Origin: Nitrospira sp.
GTDB lineage: Bacteria > Nitrospirota > Nitrospiria > Nitrospirales > Nitrospiraceae
NCBI GenBank assembly: GCA_005116945.1
Contig: SWDH01000042.1
Location: 74,088-107,245, forward strand
DNA length: 33,158 nucleotides
Reading direction: 5' to 3'
Shown here: in pieces, positions 2,382 through 26,055 of the stretch
Layout: each line of letters starts with the position of its first letter
Position numbering within the stretch: position 1 is the first letter of the stretch
Translations under genes and position numbers: made by a program
Notes under the pieces: model-generated
The model's input: the letters and a program-made list of their open reading frames with translations, nothing else
Databases searched by the model: none
Told to the model about the DNA's origin: nothing

Positions 2382-4994
2382 TCAGAATGACGGGATCTCC
2401 TGAACCAAACGAAAGCCGACGCTGCTACCTCGGTCGTCGGCGGGGCTCCCAGAGCGGTTCGAAACACGCAGGACCTCTCGTTCGTTGTCCCAGGAGCCGC
2501 CGCGGACCACACGCTGGCCTGCTACCGACGCCTTCGTGACCACCGATTTGAACGCCTCAGGTTGTTCATACCCGTTTTGGCACCATTCCCAGATATTTCC
2601 CGACAGATCGAGAAGCCCGTGATGCGATGTTCCACTTGGATACAAGCCTACGGCGGTCGTCTGGCCCAGTCGGCTTTCCCAACTATTACATCGAGCCGTA
2701 TCCCAGCCGCCAGGCCATGGGTACTCCCTCGTTGGATCGCCTCCTGTGGCCGCCTGCTGCCATTCCCACTCGGTGGGTAAGCGAATCCTCGACTTCGTCT
2801 TATGGCTCAACCAGCGACAAAATGCCACGGCTTCATACCAGGAAACCGTTTCCCTGGGGGCATTGGCGTCCTTCCATCTCGGTTCAGCCGCCGCGTCGAT
2901 CTTCTCGAGGCCTTCCCACCAGGCGTCGTTCCCATAGCCGCAGTCGCCAATGAATACTTGAAATTGACTATTCGTCACCGGGTATTTGGCCATCTCGACC
3001 GCCTGAAGCATGAGACCACCCTGCGGAATCTCAATCCATGCGATATCCGGCAGACCGTCCTGGCACACGCCAACACCAGGCCGCGGATCGCCGAACTCCG
3101 CGAGCTTTTGACCGATCAAGAGGCGCTCTTGGTGAGAGAGTTTCTCGCTCGTAAGCTTCTCAATGAGCATCTGTTGTGGTTGTAGAAACATGCCAAGCTG
3201 AACCGATGGCGTTTTTTTGAATCGAGCCAGGGCCTGTTGAATCGACTGTGCCCGCTCATAGCGCCACAGCTCATGGAGATGCCCTCCAAGATCATGCCAT
3301 CGTATTGCTGCCTCCTCGGAGTAATCGATAAGTCGCAAGTCGGCTCCGTTACTATCGATCCAGTCTTTAAGCTTGTGCCAGGCGACGAACAGTTTTTCAT
3401 GCGCCACTTCTACAACTGAGTCCTGCTCATTGCCGCTCTTTACCAATACCCGGCAATCTGGCCCTGCCAGCGCATCAATCAGATAGTTCGCAGCCTTGTC
3501 TGAAATAAAGCGCGAGAATGCCGCACGCTTTCTCGTCGGCGGACGCTCACGTTCGAGGTGCACCAACTCTGCAAAGACGTTGTCGAAGGCGCCTCGAACA
3601 TCGGCAGCTAATCCAGCCATAACCTGATCGGCCTGCGTGCCGATGGCGCCGGCCACCCCGCCAATGGCTTTGTAGGTGTCATGGGTAAAAGTCCGCTCAC
3701 ACCGACGCTCATACAGTTGCTTTAGGACATAGGCAACAAGCGGTAAACTCCCAGGTTCTTGAGCAGATTCTCGTAAAATCTCATCAACTACTTGAGGATC
3801 AAAAGTGTGGCCTGTCGCATAGGCGGGCTGTTCAATCATGTCTTGCAATGCCCTCGGCGATACCGGACCCAGGTGATAGTGGTACCCGGCGTTGAGGACT
3901 TGGAGAATCGGCTCCGATTCTTCAAGACGTGCGATAAATTCACTACGCACAGTGGCGACCAGACGCACACGGTTCTGCTTATACTGGGCTGTGGCCACAA
4001 GTTGTGCCAGGACATTTTGAATGTCCTCGTGGTGAAAGCCACGCGTGAACAGCTCTTCCAGTTGGTCGATAAACAAGACCACTTCCTGCCCCTGGGCCAG
4101 GTGCGGAGCGAGAAGTTCCCCGATAGTCGTCTGACGCCCAGCCAGATCTTTGGCAAGTTCAGGTGCAGGTCGTGAGATTCCCCGGAAGATCTGTTTCAAG
4201 CCCTGTGCAAGTGAATGAAATGGGGTCTCGCCATCACTCGGCTGGATGCGCTGCCAGACCCAGTGCTGGCTACCTGGGAGCCGCCCTTCGTCAATGATGG
4301 CTTGCCACAGCCCGGCTGCTACCAGAGAGGACTTGCCTGACCCGGACGCCCCACTCACGAGGAGGACACGGCACTCGAGCTCGCTCATCTTGCCGACCAG
4401 GTCATCGATCTCCCGGTCGCGCCCGAAAAATAGCGAGGCATAATTCTCGTCGAACCACAGCAGGCCTGGATAGGGAGATTTGCCATCAGGCCAATCGATG
4501 CGCACATGCTTCTGAGGCTCAGCCTGGATCAATGCATGCTGTGTCAACCAGCGGGCCAGCGTCCCTGTCAGATCGATTGAGCGAGGCTCTAAGCCAAACG
4601 ATTCCACACCATGGCGTTTCTTCAGCTGTTCACGCCAGGTTTTGATCTCTACATCCTTGTCCATCTCATCGAATTTTCGAGGCCATGGCGCATCCTCTAA
4701 AAGCATGAAGGGGACAATATCGACGCCTTGCTTGACTGCCGCGTCGTATTCCATCTGTGTGATGCTCCGCGTTTCGCCATCGGGCACATAGCCTCGACGA
4801 AATCCAACAAGGAGCACGCACAGATCACAACCATGAAGCCGATCCTGGGAAAATCTCTTTGGTTCCTCGCTGTCCGCAGGCCACTCTTCCATGGGGTCCA
4901 CGACAAAACCCGCTCGCCGCAACGAGCGGATCACGTGAGCCCGATGGTCCTTGAGATCCTCAAATGTGGAAGACACAAACGCTTTGTACGCCAT
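2382..4994 (-). CDS. DUF4062 - STAND ATPase (nSTAND1-like) - FGE/sulfatase-modifying-factor fusion protein
   Basis: The protein has 870 residues. Residues 1-~150 are a DUF4062 domain (KAFVSSTFEDLKDHR start, then CDLCVLLVGFRRGYVP), a TIR-like Rossmann module. About 172-450 is a STAND P-loop ATPase. It begins with PYPGLLWFDENYASLFFGR, typical of nSTAND1, and carries Walker A GASGSGKSS (215-223) and Walker B VVLFIDQLEELF (305-316). The middle (about 450-640) is a helical linker. About 650-865 is an FGE-sulfatase (C-type-lectin-like) fold with YPVTNSQF, RLPTEWEWQQAA, DLSGNIWEW and VVRGGSWDNE. The paired cysteines of true formylglycine-generating enzymes near the C-terminus are absent, so this domain is probably a binding module and not an enzyme. 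By architecture it is a sensor-ATPase-effector protein of the kind found in anti-phage or stress signalling; this role is inferred. An XRE gene follows 44 bp downstream. Confidence 0.88.
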   Translation of the reverse strand: MAYKAFVSSTFEDLKDHRAHVIRSLRRAGFVVDPMEEWPADSEEPKRFSQDRLHGCDLCVLLVGFRRGYVPDGETRSITQMEYDAAVKQGVDIVPFMLLEDAPWPRKFDEMDKDVEIKTWREQLKKRHGVESFGLEPRSIDLTGTLARWLTQHALIQAEPQKHVRIDWPDGKSPYPGLLWFDENYASLFFGRDREIDDLVGKMSELECRVLLVSGASGSGKSSLVAAGLWQAIIDEGRLPGSQHWVWQRIQPSDGETPFHSLAQGLKQIFRGISRPAPELAKDLAGRQTTIGELLAPHLAQGQEVVLFIDQLEELFTRGFHHEDIQNVLAQLVATAQYKQNRVRLVATVRSEFIARLEESEPILQVLNAGYHYHLGPVSPRALQDMIEQPAYATGHTFDPQVVDEILRESAQEPGSLPLVAYVLKQLYERRCERTFTHDTYKAIGGVAGAIGTQADQVMAGLAADVRGAFDNVFAELVHLERERPPTRKRAAFSRFISDKAANYLIDALAGPDCRVLVKSGNEQDSVVEVAHEKLFVAWHKLKDWIDSNGADLRLIDYSEEAAIRWHDLGGHLHELWRYERAQSIQQALARFKKTPSVQLGMFLQPQQMLIEKLTSEKLSHQERLLIGQKLAEFGDPRPGVGVCQDGLPDIAWIEIPQGGLMLQAVEMAKYPVTNSQFQVFIGDCGYGNDAWWEGLEKIDAAAEPRWKDANAPRETVSWYEAVAFCRWLSHKTKSRIRLPTEWEWQQAATGGDPTREYPWPGGWDTARCNSWESRLGQTTAVGLYPSGTSHHGLLDLSGNIWEWCQNGYEQPEAFKSVVTKASVAGQRVVRGGSWDNEREVLRVSNRSGSPADDRGSSVGFRLVQEIPSF

Positions 4995-5237: not shown

Positions 5238-6596
5238 TCAGAATGGCTGTCTCTCTATTGGATTGGTGGTTTCGGATTGAGGTCGAAGCCCGATTGGTTC
5301 GGTAGCGGGCTCGATACGCCCGACATCGAGGAGGATGGCAACCAGCATGTCGCTCAAGACGTTCACGCCTGAGCGGGCTCGGGCAATGATCCAATCCACC
5401 GTCAGGATGAGTGGAATGGCGGCGACGATGACGTGGGTCGGCAAGCCGGCGGCTGAAAGAACGAGCGGCAACACGATCATCCCGGCTTCAGGAATACCTG
5501 CCACGCCGGCCCCTGCGATCATCGACGCAGCGACGATCAACAGTTGATTGCCCAACAGTAAATCGAAACCAAGCGCTTGGGCGAGAAAGAGCGCGGCCAT
5601 CGCTTCATAGAGGGTAATGCCATCATTGTTGAGATTGGTGCCGACACAGGCGGCGAGCCGCGCCGATTGCGGCGAGACCTGCATACGATCAAGGCAGCGG
5701 AGGGTGACCGGCACGGTGGCGAGGCTACTGTTGCACGACACGGCGGTCATGATCGCATCGGCCCCCTGACCCAGATAAATCTTTGGCGACTTCTTCCCCA
5801 CCAGCCAGGCGACGAGCGGGTAGTAGACGAGTGCGTGGATGGCAAGCCCCAAGAGCATCGCGGCGAGAAAGACCCAGAGGACAGCGAAGACGCCGATGCC
5901 TGCCTTGCCGACGACCTGCGCGACAACGCCGAACACGGCGAGCGGCACGGCAAGGATGATCCATCCGAGCATCTGCACAAGCCAGCGATAGATGCGCTCA
6001 ATGATCCGCGCGAGGGTATGGACGGCTCCGCGACCCTGGTCTGCCTCGCCCCGCAAGCGGCGAAGGATGGCACCGAGGCACAGGGCAAGAAGGACAACGC
6101 CGATGATATTGCCGCTCGAAAACGGCGTCATGATGGTGCTGGGAATATAGGACGCGAGGTATTCGATCGGACTCTGTGCACCGGTTTGCACAGTCGCTGG
6201 GGCGCCCGTCGATAACTTGGGGATTGGTACGAAGTTCAGCAATTCATCAACGTGGCCATGCCAGGCTAAGCCTGGCTGCCAGGTGTTCATGATCACAAGA
6301 CCAATGGTCATGGCTACGGAGACGTTGACGAGGCAGATGCCAAGGAGTTTTATTCCCTGGCGTAGCGGGAGGCTTGTGCGGATAAGGGCGTCGAGGATCG
6401 CAAAGAAAATCAGCGGGATGGCGAGGGTCTTGAGCAGCGTCACGACGAGCAGACCGAGCCAGCCAAGATCCTCGTTGCGCAGGCCGCCCAGATAGGGCTC
6501 CTGACCAAAGGCTGCTCCAAGCAGCGCGCCACAGGCCACGGCAATGAGCACTTGCGCGTAGAGCGGCAGAGGAATCCAGCGTGATGGTGCCTGCAT
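5238..6596 (-). CDS. SLC1/DAACS-family dicarboxylate or amino acid:cation symporter
   Basis: This is an inner-membrane secondary transporter of the GltP/DctA/SLC1 family, about 452 residues, close to the family norm, with many hydrophobic segments. The HP1 serine-rich loop reads AVSCNSSLATVPVTL. The TM7 cation-binding motif reads NLNNDGITLYE (NMDGT-like). HP2 reads GIPEAGMIVLPLVLSAAGLP. TM8 reads DWIIARARSGVNVLSD. The Arg that binds the side-chain carboxylate is kept, while the Asp that binds the amino group in aspartate transporters is Ala here. This hints at a dicarboxylate rather than an amino acid substrate (inference). The ATG at 6596 (MQAPSRWIPLP) was chosen over a GTG ending at 6638 because it fits the family N-terminus; neither has a convincing ribosome binding site. 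The gene stands alone and is divergent from the small secreted-protein gene. Confidence 0.9.
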   Translation of the reverse strand: MQAPSRWIPLPLYAQVLIAVACGALLGAAFGQEPYLGGLRNEDLGWLGLLVVTLLKTLAIPLIFFAILDALIRTSLPLRQGIKLLGICLVNVSVAMTIGLVIMNTWQPGLAWHGHVDELLNFVPIPKLSTGAPATVQTGAQSPIEYLASYIPSTIMTPFSSGNIIGVVLLALCLGAILRRLRGEADQGRGAVHTLARIIERIYRWLVQMLGWIILAVPLAVFGVVAQVVGKAGIGVFAVLWVFLAAMLLGLAIHALVYYPLVAWLVGKKSPKIYLGQGADAIMTAVSCNSSLATVPVTLRCLDRMQVSPQSARLAACVGTNLNNDGITLYEAMAALFLAQALGFDLLLGNQLLIVAASMIAGAGVAGIPEAGMIVLPLVLSAAGLPTHVIVAAIPLILTVDWIIARARSGVNVLSDMLVAILLDVGRIEPATEPIGLRPQSETTNPIERQPF

Positions 6597-11435: not shown

Positions 11436-12431
11436 CTAGCGTCCTCCCATCACTGTGGTGGGGGTTTGGTTGGATTGTCTGGCGCGAATGAGCTCATAAG
11501 CCCGGCTCAAAATCGCATCGGCTAGCGCACGTTTTGGCATGAGGGGTAGTTCTGTCATGATCCCCTGACGGTCGATCAATGTCGCGGCGTTCTGATCGCT
11601 GCCGAATCCCGATCCTTCCCTCGTAACATCGTTGGCCACGATCAGGTCGAGGCCTTTTGCTGTCAGCTTGGCTTGTGCATGAGCGATAAGATCGCTGGTC
11701 TCAGCGGCAAAGCCGACCAGAAGTTGCGTAGTTCGTTGTGCAGATAAGGAAGCCAGAATGTCAGTGGTTCGCTCAAGGTTGAGTGTCTCGGCTCTTTGGT
11801 CCTGTTTTTTGATTTTTTGCGAGGCAGGGTGTATGGGGCGGAAGTCTGCGACAGCCGCAGCCATAATCACAGTGGTCGACCAGGCAAGACGCATGGATAA
11901 CACCTGCAACATCTCTTCAGCCGTAGCCACCGCCACAACCTCGATACGACCTAGTTCTGGAGTGACAACGGCCGTTCCCCTCGCGCACAACGTGTTCACA
12001 TGTTCTTGAACAGATGGATGCGTCCACATCCCGCCATCCATGGCAGGGGCCATGATCAACGGGCACTGCGACGTCAGAAGCATGGTCGAGAGCAGATCGT
12101 CTCCCAGCCCCAACGCTGCCTTGGCAAGACAATTCGCGGTGGCCGGCGCAATGATGATCGCATCTGCCTGCGCAGGCAATGACAAATGTTTCATTTCCTG
12201 ATGTGCTTCAAACAGATCTGTCGAGACCGGATGACCCGAGAGCACTTCAAACGTGAGGGGGGTGACAAATTTCGTGGCCGAGTGCGTCATCACGACCTGC
12301 ACAACCGCCCCTTCACGGATCAAGCTCCGGAGCAATGCCACAGCTTTATAGGCTGCAATGCTGCCGGTCACGCCAAGCACGATCCGTTTCCCGATCAATG
12401 TTGGGCCGATTGAATCGGAACTCTTCACCAC
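11436..12431 (-). CDS. coaBC: Phosphopantothenoylcysteine decarboxylase / phosphopantothenate-cysteine ligase, internally deleted
   Basis: CoaBC performs two steps of coenzyme A synthesis. The CoaC half (residues ~1-160) has VLGVTGSIAAYKA, EMKHLSLPAQADAIIIAPAT with the catalytic His, and LIMAPAMDGGMW. The CoaB half has IMAAAVADFRP, IKKQ, LLVGFAAET and DLIVANDV. The protein is only 331 residues against ~400 in the family. Alignment by eye to E. coli CoaBC shows that after VTPELGR (residue ~162, near base 11945) the sequence jumps to IEVVAVATAEEML. This skips about 75 residues: the LACG/LASG clamp loop of CoaC, the GRM segment, and the CoaB N-terminal motif GPTREPIDPVR...SSGKMG. The frame stays open. 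Such a protein should be inactive in both halves, so this is either a real in-frame deletion or an assembly error. The start is GTG at 12431, with GAGGAG 4 bases upstream. Confidence 0.9.
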   Translation of the reverse strand: MVKSSDSIGPTLIGKRIVLGVTGSIAAYKAVALLRSLIREGAVVQVVMTHSATKFVTPLTFEVLSGHPVSTDLFEAHQEMKHLSLPAQADAIIIAPATANCLAKAALGLGDDLLSTMLLTSQCPLIMAPAMDGGMWTHPSVQEHVNTLCARGTAVVTPELGRIEVVAVATAEEMLQVLSMRLAWSTTVIMAAAVADFRPIHPASQKIKKQDQRAETLNLERTTDILASLSAQRTTQLLVGFAAETSDLIAHAQAKLTAKGLDLIVANDVTREGSGFGSDQNAATLIDRQGIMTELPLMPKRALADAILSRAYELIRARQSNQTPTTVMGGR

Positions 12432-24069: not shown

Positions 24070-26055
24070 CTACTCATGGTCATCGTCATGAGCATCCGCA
24101 TCCGCATTCTCAGCTTGTGGGAACGGGTGCCTCTGCGCGTGTGTCAACTGGACCTTCCAGATGGCAGGAAGTTTCTGCACCCAACCGTTATAGACATTGG
24201 GGACTGGGAGCACACCCTGGCCACCTTGGCCTCGATTGCCCTCTACCTTGGTGATTGCATCATCTTTCGAGACGTTGTCATTGTCAAGAACCACCCAGCC
24301 GGCAATCTCCGCGTCGGACGCATCGCCATCCCGGTTTGGATCGTAGTCCAAGACGATCAGGCGGTTGGCAAACTTACTAGTGACATAGGCATAGTACCCG
24401 CCACCTCGCTTGGCTCCGAAGTTCACACCATGGCATCCTGGATCACAGATGAGGCTCTTCACCAGGGTGTCCGTCTTGGTGTCGATGATGGTAATCGTAC
24501 CGGTCAAGGTATTCCCCGTGATCACAAATTTTCCGTCTGGGCTCACAGGGGTTTGAATCGGCAATCCACCGATTGCCCCATTACCACCGACAGCCCCTGT
24601 AATCGGGTTATAGTTTTGAAGCAAGTTGATGTCCTTGATCTTCACCGGAGGATTGGCCTTCATATCGATCACGGACGTCGTATGCGACAAGTAGTTAGAC
24701 ACATAATACTTGCTCGAGTCCGGCATCATCGCTGCCGCAATAGGCAATCCGCCTGTAAAGAGTTTCGAGACAACCTCGTCCTTCTCGAAATCGAATAGGG
24801 ACGAGTCAGCCGTATTGGCGTTGGGTGTGGCCATAGTCTTACCATCGAACCCCATCCAATGGGCATGGGGTTGAGTTGGATCTGACTTCTTATTTGGATC
24901 TGGATCTTGCATCGAGATGACACGATGGGGACGGAGAAAGCCCCACCTATTCCGGTCCAGCTCCATCACACCATCTTCTCCATTGAGCGACACATGCACT
25001 TGTTGTGTGTCGACCCGCGTCATGACATGGGCTGGATCCTCGCCGACATTGATCTCCTGCATGAAACGGCCCGTGAGACGATCGATCACGAAGAGGCTCG
25101 CGCCATGCCATTCCGTCTGATAAATCTGTCGTTGATTATGGCTGGCCCACATGTTGTGGCCGTTGTTCATCTTCTGATGCGGCAGTGCGATCTTTCTTTT
25201 GACCTTCCAATTGCGATCGGGGAAGAAGGAACCGACTTCCACCACGCTGATCGTGCCAGGGAACTTTGGCCCTTTCCTGTCAGTCAACTCATATTGGCTA
25301 TCGACCCAGACTTCTCCAACTCCATTGATGCGGGGTCTCTTCGGAGGTGGGATGGTTTCACCATCAAACGTGGTTTGGAGGGCCTCATTTAAATCTTGGA
25401 CAACAGCGCCGCCAGTTAAGGCGACAGGCACAGGAGGATAGGCCGGCTTATAGGGGAGGCCCACCTTAGTGTAGTCTTTCCAATTCGACGGACTGGTCAC
25501 AACGAAAAATGCGCGCAGCAACCGAAGCCCCAGATTTGAATTGCTGGGAAAGTCTCCGACCCCTTCTAGGTGGAGATCATTGGCGCCGCCTTGGGCATTA
25601 CCGATATCAAATGCCGGGACTGTTTCCCCCTTCTTATTCACCGTTGTCGTGTTAGGATCGTCAACGATGACACCGCCGAGCATGTAGGGATGGACCTTGC
25701 ACACAAACACATACAAGCCAGGAGTCTTCAGAGTCACGTGAAAATTGTCGAAATTTGCCGCGGACTGGTCAAGCTTTTCGCTGTCGACTGCTGCCGCTGG
25801 GAAAATCAGGCTCGTGACGGTGTGCAGACTTTCTGAGGTGCGCCCGCGAACTGGGTCATTCTGGGTAAACGTCACCTTGTCGCCTGGGTTAATAATGGCC
25901 AGGGAGCGGGTCCCCACAATTTGATTGCCCGTATCGAACCAATACCCTGGGATATCAGTGACATCAAAATTCACGGTTGCTTGTTCGGCGAGAGCGAGAT
26001 CTCTCGCGCCAAGCATCAGTCCCGTCATTAACAGGGCTACTTGCAAGTACTTCAT
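24070..26055 (-). CDS. Periplasmic cupredoxin + beta-propeller copper-type metalloprotein
   Basis: The 661-residue precursor has a signal peptide (first ~23 residues, ending ALAEQA). Residues ~25-135 are a cupredoxin domain with a full type 1 copper ligand set: His78 (SLHTV), and Cys119, His122 and Met125 in VCKVHPYM. Residues ~245-625 form a YVTN/NosZ-like beta-propeller (SVIDMK, VSPDGKFVITGN, GTITIIDTKTDTLVKSL). The propeller is unusually rich in His (H300, H306, H317, H343, H397, H399, H542) and holds CDPGCHG at 537-543, a CX3CH arrangement. The C-terminus is His/Asp-rich (ADAHDDDHE). A periplasmic electron-transfer or metal-dependent redox role is inferred; no specific enzyme is recognised. 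The ATG at 26055 has AAGGAGG 6 bases upstream. It is flanked by two paralogous HEAT-like lipoproteins. Confidence 0.85.
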   Translation of the reverse strand: MKYLQVALLMTGLMLGARDLALAEQATVNFDVTDIPGYWFDTGNQIVGTRSLAIINPGDKVTFTQNDPVRGRTSESLHTVTSLIFPAAAVDSEKLDQSAANFDNFHVTLKTPGLYVFVCKVHPYMLGGVIVDDPNTTTVNKKGETVPAFDIGNAQGGANDLHLEGVGDFPSNSNLGLRLLRAFFVVTSPSNWKDYTKVGLPYKPAYPPVPVALTGGAVVQDLNEALQTTFDGETIPPPKRPRINGVGEVWVDSQYELTDRKGPKFPGTISVVEVGSFFPDRNWKVKRKIALPHQKMNNGHNMWASHNQRQIYQTEWHGASLFVIDRLTGRFMQEINVGEDPAHVMTRVDTQQVHVSLNGEDGVMELDRNRWGFLRPHRVISMQDPDPNKKSDPTQPHAHWMGFDGKTMATPNANTADSSLFDFEKDEVVSKLFTGGLPIAAAMMPDSSKYYVSNYLSHTTSVIDMKANPPVKIKDINLLQNYNPITGAVGGNGAIGGLPIQTPVSPDGKFVITGNTLTGTITIIDTKTDTLVKSLICDPGCHGVNFGAKRGGGYYAYVTSKFANRLIVLDYDPNRDGDASDAEIAGWVVLDNDNVSKDDAITKVEGNRGQGGQGVLPVPNVYNGWVQKLPAIWKVQLTHAQRHPFPQAENADADAHDDDHE

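Follow-up and report, generated by a model that had tools for sequence, protein, structure and literature searches.

Results

Organization of the coaBC locus

The window, meaning the whole 33,158-nucleotide stretch of DNA that was analysed, spans positions 74088-107245 of contig 37 of a Nitrospira draft genome (G000; 3.39 Mb in 46 contigs, 82.43% completeness, 2.01% contamination) and is bounded by scaffold N runs, with 100 Ns before it and 10 Ns after it. Its first gene resembles the later part of what is presumably groEL. On the minus strand, positions 2382-4994 encode an 870-aa protein with DUF4062, nSTAND1 NTPase, and FGE-sulfatase domains, as in STAND-type sensors, and positions 24070-26055 encode a 661-aa protein for which the only Pfam beta-propeller matches were weak and below the cut-off. 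The coaBC gene adjoins gmk, rpoZ, and efp, as do the full-length CoaBC genes (TIGR00521) of Nitrospira sp. RSF6 and CG24A. Both its 331-aa open reading frame, which reads VTPELGR and then IEVVAVATAEEML, and the presence of the neighbouring operon genes agree with an earlier sequence-only reading of this DNA. The gene is made up as follows:

11436-12431, minus strand: coaBC as assembled, 331 aa, GTG start (open reading frame; TIGR00521, 300 bits)
11948-12431, minus strand: 5' part, CoaC (Flavoprotein) up to VTPELG (DNA identity to relatives; PF02441 profile 1-146)
11947-11948, minus strand: junction, without 270 bp that the relatives G004 and G009 have (DNA alignment)
11436-11947, minus strand: 3' part, CoaB lacking its initial ~60 residues but retaining KIKK (DNA identity; PF04127 profile 54-186)

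The protein belongs to CoaBC by the TIGR00521 model (300 bits against a curated cut-off of 219.7), the match falling in two stretches. Its Flavoprotein match (PF02441) covers profile positions 1-146 of 162, compared with 1-155 of 162 in the intact G009 protein, and its CoaB domain is incomplete, with a DFP match (PF04127) over positions 54-186 of 186 compared with 1-186 in G009. These truncated matches bear out the proposal that conserved motifs of both halves of CoaBC are removed. The K-X-K-K motif of CoaB, which is named in PMC7794376, is present in the translation as KIKK.

A blunt, in-frame gap of 270 bp

Judged by coaBC, the closest relatives of G000 are G009, which corresponds to Nitrospira sp. 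RSF6 (SWDP01000002.1), and G004, which corresponds to Nitrospira sp. CG24A/RSF2 (NEWT02000017.1). Exactly 270 bp (90 codons) present in both (loci L003 and L004, respectively) are absent in frame from the window gene, which has no indels outside the gap. Identity to G004 and G009 is 95.9% and 96.1% for the 5' piece (513 bp, including 29 bp upstream of the open reading frame) and 96.7% and 93.6% for the 3' piece (547 bp, extending 35 bp beyond it). Thus, both flanks are 93.6-96.7% identical to the RSF6 and CG24A genes, and only in the window gene are codons 165-255 of the relatives' 424-codon frame reduced to one, a hybrid Arg codon (net loss of 90). The clean in-frame deletion described previously is therefore seen in DNA alignment, but its size had been put at ~75 residues, an underestimate obtained by comparison with E. 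coli CoaBC.

The join is blunt, free of Ns, and without insertion; the last base before the gap is window position 11948 and the first after it is 11947, and the nearest N runs lie ~12 kb and 21 kb away. No repeat of at least 8 bases bounds the join, and the nearest direct repeat in G009 is spaced 255 rather than 270, which led us to reject a direct-repeat deletion, including the one formerly suggested between the similar sequences GGTCGTAT and GGTATCGAGG. A hairpin cause was set aside since folding of the lost stretch is ordinary (z -0.82); two short inverted repeats lie within it, with no established tie to the gap. Across 17 genus coaBC genes, conservation of the lost stretch does not consistently exceed that of the remainder (invariant fraction 0.40-0.67 versus 0.17-0.67), which leaves a collapse of conserved DNA unproven as the cause. 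A strain chimera at the junction was likewise rejected, as identity to the two relatives shows no clear switch there (adjoining 250-bp blocks, 0.928 and 0.964 for G009 and 0.968 and 0.948 for G004).

In G009, the lost stretch begins within PLASGQIGQGRL, passes GPTQEPIDPVRFISNRSSGKMG, and ends at TALPTPRG; the protein thereby loses the CoaC end together with ~60 residues at the start of CoaB, roughly the initial third of that domain. The sequence-only reading had counted the CoaC active-site Cys of an LACG/LASG loop among the losses, but G004 and G009 both read LASG, with Ser, at this point. M. smegmatis CoaBC (6tgv) and E. coli CoaB (1u7u) are homologous to the intact G009 protein across its whole length, whereas the window protein is missing the stretch in which the counterparts of R207 and N211 are inferred to lie, two residues described in PMC7794376 as common to the active and allosteric sites of M. 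smegmatis CoaBC. In the 6tgv alignment, these positions correspond to R216 and N220 in G009 numbering, inside the lost codons, assuming a one-residue offset of the crystal chain. With the CoaC end and CoaB start gone, neither the CoaC nor the CoaB half of the window protein should work, to judge from its anatomy.

Coenzyme A pathway genes in G000

The search for a second coaB proposed in the earlier reading was run and turned up neither another CoaB nor another CoaC: in the 82%-complete G000 assembly, the single PF04127 match and the single PF02441 match both lie in the window coaBC, unlike the standalone CoaB and CoaC of split forms. Nor does G000 hold a counterpart of the lost 270 bp (best DNA match 29 bases, E 0.229). 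CoaD and CoaE are present. The pantothenate kinase CoaX, a family matched in 29 of 32 genus genomes, is represented in G000 by profile positions 1-48 of 205; because the locus ends 4 bases beyond the match, we take this fragment to be cut by the contig end rather than shortened by a deletion. No match to the CoaA family (pantetheine-kinase type) was found in G000, G004, or G009.

coaBC in the genus and family

All 32 genus genomes matched coaBC, and 28 carry it as one open frame of 417-440 codons, the exceptions being G000, G006 (frames of 243 and 277), G024 (220 and 132), and G022 (cut by the contig start). In a family draw of 118 genomes, 114 matched coaBC, 107 of them in one near-full-length match. 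The other seven (G000, G006, G024, G063, G065, G112, and G119) are drafts of 46-1030 contigs whose lesions comprise contig cuts, frameshifts, a duplication, and deletions; the gene is cut by contig ends in G063, G065, and G112 and apparently frameshifted near codon 346 in G119. Four family genomes (G034, G057, G070, and G117) gave no coaBC protein match, and a DFP family search of these found nothing in G034, G070, and G117 and a match below the cut-off in G057. Of these, G070 is 97% complete in 60 contigs, and neither search matched coaBC in it.

A short in-frame CoaBC was seen once, in G000, and in none of the 31 other genus genomes or the 113 other matching family genomes. This survey, together with the domain search of G000, led us to reject a natural short variant or a split enzyme; the split or alternative CoaB raised by the sequence-only reading is not supported by these results. 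A lesion hotspot was also considered and dropped: among eight genomes in which coaBC is broken or cut, six have lesions that touch codons 158-272, but that range was picked after looking.

Other lesions and their frequency

Two further coaBC lesions were located. In L051 (G006, Nitrospira sp. RSF48), a 46-bp near-duplicate at 5570-5660 breaks the gene, and its copies differ at several bases around a common 21-base end, which we read as two sequence variants joined. In L062, a Lac Pavin MAG locus whose coordinates fit G024, ~362 bp are absent at 5246-5248; the loss falls between codons 85 and 207 and is out of frame. Across 33 Nitrospira loci (L038-L070 of 53, G000 left out), coaBC is intact in 31 and internally broken in 2, whereas the 226 copies of seven neighbour genes comprise 223 that are intact, 3 cut by the locus end, and none with an internal break.

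When contig 37 was compared with G004 proteins, 65 matched, 52 intact and 13 not, and only coaBC fell into two separated pieces, the other 12 being single partial matches. With G009 proteins, 51 were intact and 14 were not, 3 of them in pieces: coaBC, an ORF split by a 970-bp insertion, and an ORF with stops in G000 that we take for spurious. By the criteria we applied, six deletions of at least 30 bp were counted in G000 against each relative, and only the 270-bp one lies at the same place against both, much of contig 37 aligning to one relative only or to neither. At ~28083 of its contig C9, G004 itself has a blunt, N-free loss of 181 bp in an OmpA-family gene (homologue at 46576-47613 of G000 contig 37), which is matched in one piece over 1-346 in G002, G008, G010, G014, G021, and G031 and is broken also in G005. 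Blunt internal loss is thus peculiar neither to coaBC nor to G000.

Selection on the retained codons

In the kept parts of coaBC, we counted codons at which two of the three species agree and the third is different. Silent and replacement changes number 10 and 6 in G000, 8 and 6 in G004, and 22 and 6 in G009. The 6 replacements among 16 changes in G000 are few relative to neutrality (P 0.0017-0.0062), and the replacement share resembles that of the sisters (P 1.0 and 0.30). The retained codons have therefore been under purifying selection for most of the G000 branch. Such constraint means that the gap is either recent or not real, and the result fits both alike.

Discussion

We attribute the 270-bp gap, with a probability of roughly three in four, to an error of assembly or consensus in a MAG derived from mixed strains; misassembly is also the best supported of the three explanations offered by the sequence-only reading. 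In the scenario we infer, several close Nitrospira strains would have been present in one metagenome, the assembler would have followed a path, or made a join, that left out 270 bp of coaBC, and the cells would hold the full gene and make a normal CoaBC of ~421 aa. The Danish sand-filter Nitrospira MAG set, which includes G004 and G009 by name, is described in PMC8751384 as the product of IDBA-UD co-assembly, metaWRAP reassembly, and MeDuSa scaffolding, with 14,437-45,664 within-population SNPs per Mbp. G004 and G009 contain N runs of 100 and 10 resembling those of G000, which probably belongs to this set or came from such a pipeline.

Several lines of evidence favour an artefact. Full-length coaBC is the rule in the genus (28 of 32 genomes) and in the family (107 of the 114 with a match), and the other seven family genomes are drafts; the coaBC lesions in G006/L051 and G024/L062 are of different kinds, in a gene broken in 2 of 33 loci where its neighbours show 0 breaks; the sister MAG G004 carries a blunt loss of its own elsewhere; coaBC is a single-copy gene of an essential pathway, with no CoaA-type kinase found; the retained codons are under purifying selection; and strain-mixed co-assembly with scaffolding is documented for the sand-filter MAGs in PMC8751384.

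Other observations weigh against an artefact. The length of the loss is divisible by three, an outcome with a chance of one in three; identity to G004 and G009 gives no clear sign of a strain change at the junction; and the lost stretch has no unusual folding. That coaBC alone of 65 G004 proteins is in two pieces on this 228-kb contig indicates that such gaps are not pervasive in the assembly. For a de Bruijn assembler to make a join, reads across it are normally needed; as this join is blunt, lacks Ns, and lies far from any N run, the gap may be present in some molecules, whether real or chimeric. The main rival to an artefact is a real deletion of recent date, carried by some of the sampled population or by dying or merodiploid cells, that the assembler chose over the full allele, and the protein would then be non-functional for both CoaC and CoaB. 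The blunt join, what is as far as discernible the same strain on both sides, the preserved frame, and purifying selection on the remainder would all be consistent with such an event. However, coaBC is essential in B. subtilis, where PMC11487621 describes its deletion as possible only with pantethine, via a CoaA-dependent route, and neither a CoaA-type kinase (in G000, G004, or G009) nor a second CoaB or CoaC (in G000) was found. We therefore regard a recent deletion as unlikely, although more plausible than any of the readings that follow.

It is very improbable that the 331-aa protein functions as a minimal CoaBC, or that the genome encodes an unrecognised CoaB or CoaC replacement. The open frame, the retained KIKK, and selection on the remainder would suit a functional protein, but CoaC has lost its end and the CoaB domain its first third, including the presumed counterparts of the R207 and N211 described in PMC7794376, and the form is absent from the 113 other matching family genomes. 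A real and fixed deletion compensated by an intact copy within the missing ~18% of the genome would take advantage of the 82.43% completeness of G000, yet a single coaBC locus was found in each of the other 31 genus genomes, of which 19 reach 90% completeness or more, and we give this reading very little credence. Just as doubtful is a Nitrospira lineage without CoaBC function that lives on phosphopantetheine or pantetheine taken up from its neighbours; if true, it would mean a dependence on coenzyme A cross-feeding in a chemolithoautotrophic nitrifier.

A literature search found no publication naming both Nitrospira and coaBC. If the gap is an artefact, as we favour, it calls for caution, since a family-level score of 300 bits, above the cut-off, still calls the gapped coaBC intact, and a clean loss that keeps the frame and leaves no Ns can, in an essential MAG gene, mimic biology.
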